From assembly GCA_030019445.1 (NCBI GenBank), contig JASEEU010000012.1, forward strand, positions 1-37,555: 37,555 bases of DNA. Reading direction: 5' to 3'. The stretch's first letter is position 1; each line of letters begins with the position of its first letter. The position numbers were made by a program, and so were the translations under genes. The notes beneath the pieces were generated by a model. The model was not told the DNA's origin. It saw only the letters and a list, made by a program, of their open reading frames with translations, and did not search any database. Positions 1 through 5,564 of this stretch are shown one piece after another. The stretch is from Anaerosomatales bacterium (GTDB lineage Bacteria > Actinomycetota > Coriobacteriia > Anaerosomatales > Anaerosomataceae).

Positions 1-2513
1 CCATCGACCGGCTCGTGCCCGGCTACTTCGCCCGTGCGGGCGGGGACAAGAAGACCGGGTACGACGGCAGGGCGCACAGCGGCGGGCGAGCGTTCACCAC
101 GCGGTGGGACAGCGCAGCGGAGTTCGGGACGTGCGGCGCGGAGAACGTGAGCGTGCAGGGGGCCGGCAGCGTCACGCTTCCGACGACGACCGTCGAGGCG
201 ACCAAGCTCGCGATGCCGACGATCAGCCCCGCACCGCTCCAGGAGATGCCGCCGATGGGCGATGCGCGGGTCGTGTTCGACGGTGATGCGCAGACGTACT
301 GCTACTGGGACGCCTCGAGCGCCGGTGCCACCTCGGCCAACGGGTATCAGGGCTCGGCAACGGTCCAGATCGACCTGGGCGGGCTCATGCAGGTGGACTC
401 GCTCGTGTGGGACTTCGTCTCGTCGACGTACTCTGCCGATGTGATCGAGGTGCTCGGCAGCGTCGACGGCTCGGCGTGGAGCACGATCGCGAGCAAGGGC
501 ACGCTTGGGACGCAGCTCACGGCCGCGGAGACGCTCGCCGCCGACGCGCAGGCGCGCTACGTGCGCTTCGTGTACCGGCGCGTCTTCTCGGGTGGGTCAG
601 GCTACGTGTACCTTGCCGAGCTCACCGTGAACGGCCGTCCTCTGGAGGGGGACATCGTCGCGCACCCCGACGTCGCACGGGCCGCCACCTTCCAGGGCGG
701 CACGGTACGCTGGAAGAGCACGAACCCCGCCGGGACCGCCGTCAGCGTGGCGGTGCGCGCCTCGGTGAACGGCGGCCAGACGTGGACGGCATGGCAGACG
801 GTCGCCAACGGCGGTTCCATCACGCAGCTGGCCAACGGGGCGGATCTCTCCAACGCGCAGCTCGACGTGCGCGCGACGCTCACCACCTCGGCGCTTGGGC
901 AGACGCCGACGCTCGAGTGGCTCGAAGTCACGGTCACGCGCGGTGACATCCCCGGCACGGTGGCCGAGTGGACGGGCGCAGGCGCTTCGACGACGTGCGC
1001 GAACTGCCATGAGCCGCACGGCGGCGACGAGGCCGCGCTCATGGCCGAGAAGAGCACGGTCGTATGCACGCGCTGTCACCAGGCCGCGTACGGAGGGACG
1101 TACTTCGGCGCGGCCGAGGCCACGGCATCGGTGCACGACGCGGTGACGTGCACCGGGTGCCACGGGTCTCACGGGACCCGCAGCGGCAGCACGGGCGCCT
1201 TCGCCTACCTCCTGGAAGATGACCGCCGGGATGCCTGCTTCTCCTGTCATCCCGAGGTGAAGACGGCCTTCGACGCGCCGGTGAGCGTCGCCGCCGAGTG
1301 GGGACGCCATGACGTGTACGCCGTCGACCAGCATGAGACGGGGAGCCGCATCCGTTGCGGCAACTGTCACTCGGTCCACGCGGAGACCGGCCTGGTCGAT
1401 CCCGATGATGTCGATCGCACCTTCGCGCTCTACCGTGACGACCCCACATCCATCCCCACCGGCGAGGTCGTCGTCTATGCGAGCAGGGACACGCTCATCG
1501 AGGGGACGGCAGGCCAGGAGACGTTCAACTTCGGCAGCGCATCCACGGCCACGCTCACCCAGAGCAACGCGCTGCTGCTCTACTTCGACCTCAGCGGCAT
1601 ACCCGCGGGCGCCACGATCCAGCACGCCGCGCTCGTCTTGTGGGCGACATCAAGCCCGAGCGGCGGCTACACGGTGGCTCCGGCCGCACGCGCATGGCAG
1701 GAGGGGACCGGTACCGGGCAGGCGAACAACGCGTCGATCGACGGCGCGACGTGGTACGAGTGGCGCTACGGCGACAACGCCTGGACGGGCGATGTCGCCG
1801 GTGGCGACTGGGCGGCGGCGGGTGGAGACGCGGGGACGCCCTCGGCGACGAACAGCTTCGCGTCCAGCAACACCTCGCTGAATGTGACGGAGATCGTGCG
1901 CGCCCTGCGACAGGGTACGAACAACGGCGTCATCGTCCGCGGGAGCAGCGCGTCGAGCTCGTTCGCGACGTACCTGCGCGAGTACGGCACCGTGCAGTAC
2001 CGACCGAAGCTTCGGATCACCTACCAGACGGGACCCGCCACCCGACAGGTCCTCGACGACCTCGCGTTCTGCCTGAAGTGCCACGACGGCACGATGCCGA
2101 TGGGCCTCTCGGGACAGTCGCTCACGTGGATCGCCAACGCCTACGCGGCGCGCCCGCACGGCGCCGCGCAGGGCCTCGGTCCCGAATCGCGGACGAACAG
2201 CACCGACCGGGGCGGTGGCGGCCTCAAGGCGCCCTACACGTACGGCATGGACCCGCTGCCGTGCACGACGTGCCATGACCCGCACGGTTCGTCGCTGCCT
2301 TTCCATCTCAAGGAGGTCGTGAACGGTCGGGACATGACCGGCCTCGGCGCGTGGGGCTACGCCAACGTGATCCCGCCGGCGATGGGGATGGCGAGCCCGC
2401 CGTCCACCGGGTGGTTCTGCGGTGCCTGCCACATCTACCCGACGAGCCACAACCGGGAGGGCAGCAGCGGCTGCTCCCCGTGCCACGGCCACACCGGCTC
2501 CCGCGGAGGATAG
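1..2513 (+). CDS. Multiheme c-type cytochrome with discoidin-like and DNRLRE-like domains (5' end outside window)
   Basis: The reading frame is open back to base 1, so the true start and any signal peptide lie upstream; residues are numbered from the GTG at 15. Nine CxxCH heme-binding motifs are visible, at nt 996, 1065, 1149, 1236, 1356, 2070, 2262, 2418 and 2472. The order of modules is: a beta-rich F5/8 type C (discoidin)-like domain around residues 80-205; a second beta-sandwich around 215-310; five hemes of the doubled-CxxCH type (328-452); a DNRLRE-like beta domain (about 490-675); and four C-terminal hemes (686-824). Known for such families: covalent heme c attached outside the cytoplasm, and electron transfer at or beyond the cell surface. 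The adhesive-type modules suggest attachment to a surface, wall polymer or extracellular partner (inference). No cytochrome-maturation genes are in the window. It ends 53 bp before the hrcA promoter and has no clear terminator. Confidence 0.85.
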   Translation, partial: IDRLVPGYFARAGGDKKTGYDGRAHSGGRAFTTRWDSAAEFGTCGAENVSVQGAGSVTLPTTTVEATKLAMPTISPAPLQEMPPMGDARVVFDGDAQTYCYWDASSAGATSANGYQGSATVQIDLGGLMQVDSLVWDFVSSTYSADVIEVLGSVDGSAWSTIASKGTLGTQLTAAETLAADAQARYVRFVYRRVFSGGSGYVYLAELTVNGRPLEGDIVAHPDVARAATFQGGTVRWKSTNPAGTAVSVAVRASVNGGQTWTAWQTVANGGSITQLANGADLSNAQLDVRATLTTSALGQTPTLEWLEVTVTRGDIPGTVAEWTGAGASTTCANCHEPHGGDEAALMAEKSTVVCTRCHQAAYGGTYFGAAEATASVHDAVTCTGCHGSHGTRSGSTGAFAYLLEDDRRDACFSCHPEVKTAFDAPVSVAAEWGRHDVYAVDQHETGSRIRCGNCHSVHAETGLVDPDDVDRTFALYRDDPTSIPTGEVVVYASRDTLIEGTAGQETFNFGSASTATLTQSNALLLYFDLSGIPAGATIQHAALVLWATSSPSGGYTVAPAARAWQEGTGTGQANNASIDGATWYEWRYGDNAWTGDVAGGDWAAAGGDAGTPSATNSFASSNTSLNVTEIVRALRQGTNNGVIVRGSSASSSFATYLREYGTVQYRPKLRITYQTGPATRQVLDDLAFCLKCHDGTMPMGLSGQSLTWIANAYAARPHGAAQGLGPESRTNSTDRGGGGLKAPYTYGMDPLPCTTCHDPHGSSLPFHLKEVVNGRDMTGLGAWGYANVIPPAMGMASPPSTGWFCGACHIYPTSHNREGSSGCSPCHGHTGSRGG

Positions 2514-2598: not shown

Positions 2599-2625
2599 CT
2601 GGCACTCGGCGCCCGAGAGTGCCAG
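2599..2625 (+). promoter_or_regulatory. CIRCE operator (HrcA-binding inverted repeat), GC-rich variant
   Basis: This is a perfect 9-bp inverted repeat, CTGGCACTC then nine bases then GAGTGCCAG. It matches the CIRCE layout (consensus TTAGCACTC-N9-GAGTGCTAA) with only the outer bases changed toward GC. It lies just downstream of the -10 box, and its last bases begin the Shine-Dalgarno sequence of hrcA (AGGAGGG, 2624-2630). This is direct evidence that HrcA represses its own operon. Confidence 0.93.
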
Positions 2626-2636
2626 GAGGGTATCGC

Positions 2637-3656
2637 ATGCACAGCGAACGCCGGCGGACGGTGCTGTCCGCCCTCATCAACGAGTATGTGGCCAGCAGCC
2701 AGCCGGTGGGCAGCAAGGTGCTCGTCGAGCGCTATCGGCTCGGGTGCAGCCCAGCGACCGTGCGCAACGAGCTCGCCGCGCTCGAGGACGGCGGATACGT
2801 CTACCAGCCGCACGTCTCGGCCGGACGCGTGCCCACCGATAGCGGGTATCGCGCCTTCGTGGACGATGTGGCCGAGCGCCACACCGACGAGCTGCCGGCC
2901 TCAGAGGTGGACGCCATCCACGCGCGCTACGAGCGCGTGGAGCACGAGCTGGCCGAGGTGATGCGCGAGACGGCCACGGTGCTCTCGACGCTCACCGAAT
3001 GCGCGGCGGTCGTCGCGGCTCCGACGCTCCGGCGGGCGCGCATCCGCCGCGTCTCGCTCGTGGGGATCGGTCCGGCGCGCGCGACCGTGGTCGTCGTGAC
3101 GGACTCGGGGCAAGTGGCGAACCGCAGCGTCGAGTTCGACCAGCCGCTCGAGGGCGAGGCGCTCGCCGAGGTCGAACGCTACGTGGACGGCGCGCTCCGC
3201 GACCTGGTAGGCGCCGAGGTGGCGTTCCTGCGCGATCGCATCGAGGGCGTCCCCGGAGCTGAGGCGCAGGCGACGCTCGCGGTCTTCGAGGAGGTCATCG
3301 ACTGCCTGGTGGAGGCCGATGAGGACCGCGTGCTGACACACGGCGTCACCGCGCTGCTGCGCCAGCCGGAGTTCACGGACGCCGACGCGATCCGTCCGGT
3401 CGTCGCGCTGCTGGAAGACTCGATCACGGTGCTGCACGTGCTCTCGGACGTGATGCAGTCGCCCGATGTCGTAGTGCGCATCGGGAGCGAGAACCGGGTC
3501 GACGGCCTGACGCGGATGAGCTTCGTCGCGCACCACTACGGGAGCGGCGACGCCGGCGGCATCGTCGGCGTCCTCGGCCCCACACGCATGGACTATCCGC
3601 GCGCGATGGCCACGGTCCGCACCGTGGCGTCGACGCTCTCAGACCATCTCGGCTAG
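2637..3656 (+). CDS. hrcA: Heat-inducible transcription repressor HrcA
   Basis: This 339-aa protein has the usual HrcA length. The N-terminal winged helix ([18 protein letters not shown], then SQPVGSK and [23 protein letters not shown]) is the classic HrcA DNA-binding signature. It is followed by the GAF-like dimerisation region and a C-terminal segment with the family pattern around GSENRVDGL. HrcA binds CIRCE and represses chaperone genes until heat or unfolded protein titrates GroEL. I chose ATG 2637, seven bases after AGGAGGG, over the in-frame GTG at 2619, which lies inside the operator. It is followed directly by dnaJ, whereas grpE and dnaK, often in the same operon, are absent and presumably lie elsewhere. 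Confidence 0.96.
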
Positions 3657-3681
3657 ACCGGGAGGCGAGGAGACCGACCGT

Positions 3682-4803
3682 ATGGCAGCTGCTAAGGACT
3701 ACTACGCGACGCTCGGCGTCGAGCGGACCGCGTCCACCGACGAGATCAAGAAGGCGTTCCGCCGTAAAGCGCGCGAGTCGCATCCCGACGTCGCGGGCGA
3801 CGACGGCGCCGAGGAGCGCTTCAAGGAGATCAACGAGGCGTACGAGGTCCTCTCGGACCCCGAGAAGCGCCAGATGTACGACCGCTTCGGCACGGCGGAT
3901 CCCCGCCAGGTGGGCTACGGCGGCCCCGGGGACGTCGGCGACTTCTTCGGCGGGTTCGAGGACCTGTTCTCGGTGTTCATGGGCGGCATGGGCAACGTGG
4001 GCGCGACGCGCACCGTGCGCACCGAGGGCCGGGACATGCGGGCCCGGCTGACGGTCACGCTGCTCGAGGCGGCCGAGGGTGTCGAGCGCGAGCTCACCAT
4101 CAGGCGACCGGCGCCGTGCGCGGCGTGCGACGCGAGCGGCGCGGCGCCGGGCGGCGAGGTGAAGACGTGCCCCGACTGCGGCGGCACGGGACAGCGCCGC
4201 ACGCAGCGGCGGACGATCCTCGGCGTCATGCAGTCGGTGACGGCGTGCGATCGCTGCGGGGCGACCGGGCGCGTCGCCGAGCCGCCGTGCCCCGAGTGCA
4301 CGGGGAGCGGTCGCGCTATGGCCGAGGAGACGGTGACCGTTCGGGTCCCCGCGGGCGTGATGGACGGCACGACGCTGCGCATGCCCGAGAAGGGCGAGGC
4401 CGGCCTGCGCGGCGCGAGGGCAGGCGACCTGCTCGTCACGATCACGGTGCTGCCGCACGAGTTCCTGCTGCGCGAGGGCGACGACCTGCACGAGATGGTC
4501 CCCGTCAACATCGCTCAGGCCGCGCTCGGCGCGACCATCAGCGTCCCGGGGCTGTTCGGTGATGTGGAGGCGGCGTTCGGGGGCGGAGCGCAGTCGGGCG
4601 ACGTGGTGCGCGTGAAGGGCGAGGGCATGCCCCGGGTGCGTGGCACCGGGCGCGGCGACCTCGTGGTGCACCTGAAAGTCGAGGTCCCGCGCAAGCTCGA
4701 CAAGCGCCAGAAGGAGCTGCTGGCCGAGCTCGGCGAGACGTTCGGCACCGAGACCGGCCGGCCCACGCCGCTCGACCGGCTGAAGGACTGGTTGACCGGC
4801 TGA
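3682..4803 (+). CDS. dnaJ: Chaperone protein DnaJ (Hsp40)
   Basis: This 373-aa type I J-protein stimulates the ATPase of DnaK and holds unfolded clients. The J domain covers residues 5-70 with the HPD motif at 34-36. It is followed by a Gly/Phe-rich linker ([17 protein letters not shown]) and a zinc-finger domain from Cys146 with four CxxCxGxG-type repeats ([32 protein letters not shown]). The client-binding beta domains and dimerisation end complete the protein. A GGAGGCGAGGAG ribosome site precedes ATG 3682. The gene starts 25 bp after hrcA and is therefore under CIRCE control. Its stop overlaps the rsmE start (TGATG). The linker is short, so this is the DnaJ2-like copy found beside hrcA in actinobacteria; a second dnaJ may sit with dnaK elsewhere (inference). 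Confidence 0.96.
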
Positions 4804-5564
4804 TGGCCCTCCACCGCTTCTTCTGCGAAGGCCCGCTGCCGGCGGAGAGCGGCACGCTGTCTCTCTCGGCGGCGGACATCCACCACGTCCGCGACGTCCT
4901 GCGTCTCGCTCCCGGCGACGAGGTCGTCTGCGTGGGTGCCGACGGCATCGCCGCTCGCGTGCGTCTCACGCTGGTGGCCGAGACGATCGAGGGCACGGTC
5001 CTCGGGGAGCTGCCGCCCGCACGGCTGCCGCGCGTGACGCTCGTGCAGGGGGTGGGCAAGGGCGAGAAGATGGACGCGGTGGTCCGCCAGTGCACCGAGA
5101 TCGGCGTGGAGCGGATCGTGCCGCTCACGAGCTCACGCACGGTGGTGCGCCTCGATGCGCGCAAGGCCGAGGCGCGGCGCGAGCGCTGGCAGCGCATCGC
5201 CGCCGAGGCCGCCAAGCAGGCGCAACGCGACGCCGTCCCGGAGGTGGCTGCGGTCTCGACGCTCGCGGACGTCGCCGCGGAGCTTGGGCGCCACGCGCTG
5301 GCGCTCGTCTGCTGGGAGGACGCCGAGGCCGAGGGTGTGCGCGCCGCCATCGCGCGTCACGCTCCGGCGCCCGGCGCGAGCGTGGCGGTCGTCGTCGGCC
5401 CGGAGGGCGGCTTGTCCGCCGAGGAGGTCGACGCCCTCATCGACGCGGGCGCGGTGCCCGTGAGCCTCGGTCCGACCATCCTGCGCACCGAGACGGCGGG
5501 CGTGGTGGCGAGCGCCCTCGTCATCCACGAGCTCGGAGGGCTGGGGGGCGAGCCGCGTGCGTGA
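4803..5564 (+). CDS. rsmE: 16S rRNA (uracil1498-N3)-methyltransferase RsmE
   Basis: This 253-aa SPOUT-class methyltransferase makes m3U1498 in 16S rRNA. An N-terminal PUA-like domain (HHVRDVLRLAPGDEV) is followed by the catalytic fold with KGEKMDAVVRQCTEIGV, then WQRIAAEAAKQAQR, VVVGPEGGLS and the C-terminal knot segment LGPTILRTETAGVVA, all hallmark RsmE stretches. The start ATG overlaps the dnaJ stop and its own 3' end overlaps mtaB by 8 bp, which indicates translational coupling within the heat-shock operon. The dnaJ-rsmE-mtaB neighbourhood is also known in Bacillus. Confidence 0.95.
   Translation: MALHRFFCEGPLPAESGTLSLSAADIHHVRDVLRLAPGDEVVCVGADGIAARVRLTLVAETIEGTVLGELPPARLPRVTLVQGVGKGEKMDAVVRQCTEIGVERIVPLTSSRTVVRLDARKAEARRERWQRIAAEAAKQAQRDAVPEVAAVSTLADVAAELGRHALALVCWEDAEAEGVRAAIARHAPAPGASVAVVVGPEGGLSAEEVDALIDAGAVPVSLGPTILRTETAGVVASALVIHELGGLGGEPRA

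Follow-up and report, generated by a model that had tools for sequence, protein, structure and literature searches.

A large multiheme cytochrome of the order Anaerosomatales with two binding-type domains in its predicted heme chain

The locus and the joined gene

The window, the stretch of 37,555 bases that was analysed, is the beginning of contig C3 in the genome of an uncultured subsurface actinobacterium of the order Anaerosomatales (Coriobacteriia; 2.09 Mb in 23 contigs). Its first gene encodes a large multiheme cytochrome that belongs to a family from this order, and is followed by an hrcA-like gene and dnaJ (Table 1), a neighbourhood that is also present in two relatives (G015 and G023). 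The cytochrome frame is truncated at its 5' end because the window starts where the contig starts. It is open on this side, comprises 836 aa up to the stop codon at 2511-2513 and has a GC content of 90% at the third codon position.

Table 1 Features at the beginning of the window
Feature	Position	Strand	Basis and details
55 bases identical to C19:9758-9812 (-); downstream end of the collapsed 1,199-bp repeat	1..55	+	
3' part of the multiheme cytochrome gene, 836 codons and stop	3..2513	+	open frame, CxxCH count, relatives, joined frame
F5/8 type C (discoidin-like) domain	261..581	+	PF00754, aa 87-193
Putative strand-rich segment without hemes, behind the discoidin domain, limits approximate	636..956	+	conservation; strands in a low-confidence model
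Five-heme module, CxxCH at 996, 1065, 1149, 1236, 1356	996..1370	+	non-motif invariant His at aa 339, 378, 390, 436, 459
DNRLRE domain separating hemes 5 and 6, as counted in the window part	1518..2021	+	NF033679, aa 506-673
Four-heme C-terminal module, CxxCH at 2070, 2262, 2418, 2472	2070..2486	+	non-motif invariant His at aa 719, 761, 768, 816
hrcA-like gene, downstream of the cytochrome gene	2619..3656	+	translation and gene order, not family search
dnaJ, after the hrcA-like gene	3682-4803		translation and gene order, not family search

The truncation is an assembly break at a 1,199-bp repeat that is common to the window gene and a giant neighbouring cytochrome gene on contig C19. Just as the first bases of the window recur within C19, the first 55 bases of C19 itself are found again at C19:10902-10956. 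Since exactly 55 bases are shared at both places, which fits the overlap of a de Bruijn assembly, the repeat of the two cytochrome genes has evidently been collapsed. On its minus strand, C19 carries leuS, comEC, a 7-heme gene, the giant cytochrome gene, lepA, hemW and, at the contig end, the start of a gene with a signal peptide (names taken from translations, not from family searches). Only one linear order retains lepA and hemW, and the chromosome should therefore continue from the signal-peptide start through the repeat into the window gene and on to hrcA.

Joined via the shared 55-mers, the frame stays open over 1,313 aa and contains 12 CxxCH motifs and one CX3CH motif. The full-length gene thus appears to encode 1,313 aa, by a join drawn from the assembly and not from a read, and for about 363 residues in its N-terminal part the sequence comes from the collapsed repeat. 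The joined protein consists of a signal peptide, a heme-free N-terminal region, a CX3CH and three CxxCH motifs, the discoidin and beta domains, five hemes, the DNRLRE domain and four hemes. A sequence-only reading of the window had supposed that the truncated side might hold more hemes, and the joined gene, like three relatives, bears this out with three CxxCH motifs and a CX3CH motif on that side. Of the features for which it had suggested an upstream extension, hemes and a signal were found, but an anchor motif was not.

It is very unlikely that this 5' junction is wrong and that the window gene is a strain variant or a pseudogene fragment instead of the whole 1,313-aa gene. Such a reading could point to the collapsed repeat, which holds much of the N-terminal part, and to a frame shift near the internal repeat of the giant neighbour. 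However, the identity with the contig ends is exactly 55 bases at each repeat end, the joined frame is open, its length and motif number match three independent relatives, and lepA and hemW are kept in the chromosome by this linear order only.

C19:9758-10956 and the deduced 5' part of the window gene are identical over all 1,199 bases and lie in direct orientation around lepA-hemW. The identity between the two genes suggests recent gene conversion, and direct repeats in this arrangement could allow excision by recombination. When cytochromes are counted in fragmented genomes, genes with a repeat that collapses in this way can be missed or cut. In three genomes (L005 together with the window, L051 and L053), the lepA/hemW/hrcA neighbourhood is home to several distinct multiheme cytochrome genes, whose order varies; it is a hot spot for such genes.

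The giant gene on C19 of the same genome (G000; L005:4315-11340, minus strand) has a frame of 2,341 aa with an internal, near-exact 1.25-kb repeat, the copies of which are 2,454 bases apart. As five further CxxCH motifs lie in another frame (3554-5125), there is a frame shift near the repeat boundary, which may be either an assembly error or real. Even larger open frames with 75 CxxCH motifs each were observed in Anaerosomatales C14-13 (L060:4356-16712; 4,118 aa) and in UBA2184 (L061:3-15188; 5,061 aa). Both have near-periodic heme repeats downstream of Ig-like domains and a heme number comparable to that of the ANME giants.

Heme core and inserted domains

The nine CxxCH motifs in the frame of the window start at aa 332, 355, 383, 412 and 452 and at aa 690, 754, 806 and 824, which confirms the 5 + 4 arrangement noted before. 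They are not a matter of composition: in 2,000 shuffles of the residues, CxxCH occurred 0.0135 times on average and never more than once, and the other reading frames contain none or one. The Paired_CXXCH model (PF09699) matches the window protein with 55.3 bits (cut-off 20.6; E 5e-15).

All four proteins compared, the joined protein and its three full-length relatives, have 13 heme motifs. The last one (2472-2486 in the window) varies: the window gene has CxxCH, its three relatives have CX3CH, and at the same aligned place the compact homologues G056 and G042 carry CX4CH. For ImcH and some CymA homologues, CX3CH has been described as an atypical putative heme motif (PMC6295460). Among the four proteins 27 of 32 histidines are invariant, 13 within motifs and 14 elsewhere, the latter distributed 5/5/4 across the three heme groups. 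As 14 invariant non-motif histidines face 13 motifs, there are enough of them for bis-His ligation of every heme, and distal axial ligands for all 13 would be available. Up to 13 hemes are predicted, grouped as CX3CH + 3, 5 and 4. The invariant proximal and distal histidines, together with the System II ResB genes of the genome, argue for motifs that are heme-competent, as had been presumed.

Both non-heme domains that had been suspected from the letters alone, a discoidin-like one in front of the hemes and a DNRLRE-like one splitting the heme groups, exceed the curated cut-offs of their models. PF00754 scores 36.3 bits on the window protein (cut-off 28.2; E 6.9e-9, and 5.8e-12 on the sub-sequence), and profile matches of the segment include the PDB discoidin domains of 8ayr and of bacterial sialidases. 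Discoidin (F5/8C) domains are a binding-type family in other proteins. The NCBIfam model DNRLRE_dom (NF033679) reaches 46.3 bits (cut-off 34); a search of this segment against the PDB gave no match. The strand-rich segment behind the discoidin domain (Table 1) matched no family. An AlphaFold2 model of the window protein, built with four relatives, has a mean pLDDT of 35.6 and a pTM of 0.28 and was not used for fold searches.

The full-length relatives come from HGW-Actinobacteria-1 (G015), HGW-Actinobacteria-6 (G023) and Coriobacteriia E6 bin 92 (G048). They are 45-51% identical over the window part and about 1,260-1,321 aa long (ends approximate), and in the first two the gene lies in the same lepA/hemW to hrcA neighbourhood. 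The Gram-positive host assumed in the sequence-only reading agrees with the affiliation of the named relatives to the Actinobacteria, Coriobacteriia and Anaerosomatales. A partial relative from another family (G041, 31% identity) also displays the order F5/8C, five hemes, DNRLRE, four hemes, with a DNRLRE match of 31 bits that is just below the cut-off of 34. Orthologs were detected in only five of the 69 genomes of Anaerosomatales (E 1e-30), so this is an accessory cytochrome.

Five compact homologues (G060, G056, G042, G027 and G049) lack the DNRLRE domain, and their heme motifs follow each other without large gaps. If the discoidin block and the DNRLRE domain are excised from the window protein, the remaining core aligns across the junctions to these homologues (E 2e-21 to 1e-16). 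Even when the C and H of the motifs are masked, the match across the DNRLRE site persists for three of the five (E 7e-5 to 5e-4). Since the heme core is continuous in the compact homologues, the simplest interpretation is that both domains were inserted into an older core at fixed sites; support is better for the DNRLRE site than for that of the discoidin block. Giant paralogues contain different large inserts (about 850 aa), one of which occupies the DNRLRE site. Domain order, conservation of motifs and histidines, and insertion sites can be read directly from the sequences, as can the export signal and ResB.

Export and likeness to known cytochromes

A hydropathy scan of the joined protein revealed a hydrophobic, signal-peptide-like segment at aa 9-27, which speaks for export, in line with the sequence-only reading. 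ResB of System II cytochrome c maturation is encoded in the genome (above cut-off), next to many Paired_CXXCH genes. The proposal of a surface-anchored conduit fared less uniformly: export is backed by the signal segment, but covalent anchoring is not. The joined protein has no LPXTG-type motif, no strongly hydrophobic stretch besides the signal segment and no lipobox cysteine in the signal; an SLH domain was found nowhere in the host genome and no S-layer-type Pfam domain in the window protein. Anchoring by sortase was dropped for want of an LPXTG-like motif, despite one sortase gene in the genome, and anchoring by SLH domains for want of any SLH match.

At the sequence level, the window protein matched no PDB sequence at E 0.01 that would indicate an OcwA/NrfA-like relation, and no PDB sequence of the nanowire cytochromes OmcS, OmcE and OmcZ. 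The MtrC/MtrF domain model PF22113 is absent from the window protein and matches the giant neighbour. The PDB match 6r2q_A, labelled as cystathionine beta-synthase in the match table and presumably an Mtr complex, covers heme-motif regions only and was rejected as a family assignment.

Cultured Anaerosomatales (Anaerosoma, Parvivirga) are reported to possess 17-18 multiheme cytochromes per genome, both scattered and clustered (PMC9686372). Parvivirga is described there as obligately Fe(III)-reducing, whereas for Anaerosoma tenue, despite its 18 multihemes, the discussion of that paper states that Fe(III) is not used as an acceptor. These cytochromes belong to the same order as the window protein and are predicted to be membrane-bound or at the surface; they were named MtrA-, OmcH-, OcwA- and SmhB-like, and the part of the paper at hand does not mention discoidin or DNRLRE inserts (PMC9686372).

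The multiheme cytochromes of ANME archaea (types A, B and C) resemble the window protein in being large, extracellular and fused to S-layer or carbohydrate-type domains, and they have been proposed as conduits for cells that lack an outer membrane. However, they are archaeal, carry 20-86 hemes and possess S-layer, peptidase-M6-like or pectin-lyase-like domains and some a C-terminal transmembrane helix, none of which is present in the window protein (PMC9012536). OcwA from Thermincola potens is likewise a Gram-positive cell-surface multiheme protein and a proposed terminal reductase, but packs nine hemes into 525 aa, is kin to NrfA/MccA and has a methionine-coordinated heme (PMC6703420). OmhA, SmhA, SmhB and SmhC of the Gram-positive Fe(III) reducer Carboxydothermus ferrireducens are secreted or surface multihemes without a tie to porins or pilins; by the partial description considered here they have 6-12 hemes (PMC7829351). 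For the insert at aa 506-673, the nearest characterised likeness is CBM96, whose founder has been proven to bind alginate and shares about 30% identity with DNRLRE domains (PMC9971899). The known binder sits in an alginate lyase, whereas binding by the DNRLRE domain of the window protein is putative.

In the open-access literature we found neither a multiheme cytochrome with a discoidin domain nor a DNRLRE domain together with a cytochrome, and experimental work on this protein or on close relatives did not come up either. The modular extracellular multiheme cytochrome as such is a known kind, and the present combination of domains was not found described there. A heme chain interrupted by two domains of sugar- or surface-binding type is unusual for proteins of this kind, which are otherwise common in iron-respiring microbes.

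Proposed role in electron transfer

On balance, the gene probably encodes a secreted cytochrome for extracellular electron transfer, about 1,313 aa long with up to 13 hemes, that is held to polysaccharide by its inserts. An older, continuous heme core would have gained beta-domain inserts at fixed sites, the discoidin-like block between the N-terminal and the five-heme group and the DNRLRE domain between the five- and the four-heme group. The protein would be exported by the Sec route, System II would attach the hemes, and the distal histidines would complete their bis-His ligation. Outside the membrane, the inserts may hold the cytochrome non-covalently to a polysaccharide, which might belong to the wall or exopolymer of the cell itself, to a partner cell or to organic matter on mineral surfaces. 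Respiratory electrons could then pass along the hemes to an extracellular acceptor, for instance Fe(III). We infer heme loading, location and ligand as well as the direction and the acceptor of the electrons. That the two domains in the heme chain are both glycan-binding, making the protein a carbohydrate-docking conduit whose single core is retargeted by swapping inserts between paralogues at fixed sites, is a tentative idea that we consider rather doubtful.

The inserts might also bind neither sugar nor surface and act as structural spacers that set the distance between the heme groups of a wall-spanning intermediate carrier, a relay within the cell envelope. Their fixed sites between heme groups, the other large inserts of the giant paralogues, including the one at the DNRLRE site, and the absence of an anchor motif would all suit this explanation, which is possible but not likely: the families F5/8C and DNRLRE/CBM96 are of binding type where they occur in other proteins (PMC9971899 for CBM96), and the sequences of the inserts have been kept above the curated cut-offs.

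A surface terminal reductase or a contact cytochrome for interspecies electron transfer, with inserts that recognise the glycans of another cell, appears improbable. An analogous architecture with pectin-lyase-like domains and a corresponding proposal exist for ANME MHC-C (PMC9012536), but this is an analogy only, and we found no reports of syntrophy for the lineage. Least of all do we expect a polymerising nanowire, which a secreted protein with many hemes might bring to mind; large beta inserts separate the heme groups, and a search of PDB sequences brought up no nanowire cytochrome. The nanowire or adhesin role that had been considered initially gained no positive evidence.

With regard to the preferred reading, a secreted cytochrome held to polysaccharide, it is poorly known how electrons pass through the wall of cells without an outer membrane and how cytochromes are held outside such cells. 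If the inserts bind polysaccharide, this would explain how an unanchored cytochrome is retained at the surface. The Anaerosomatales family, in which one heme core occurs with and without binding-type inserts in a single bacterial order, offers a testable case.
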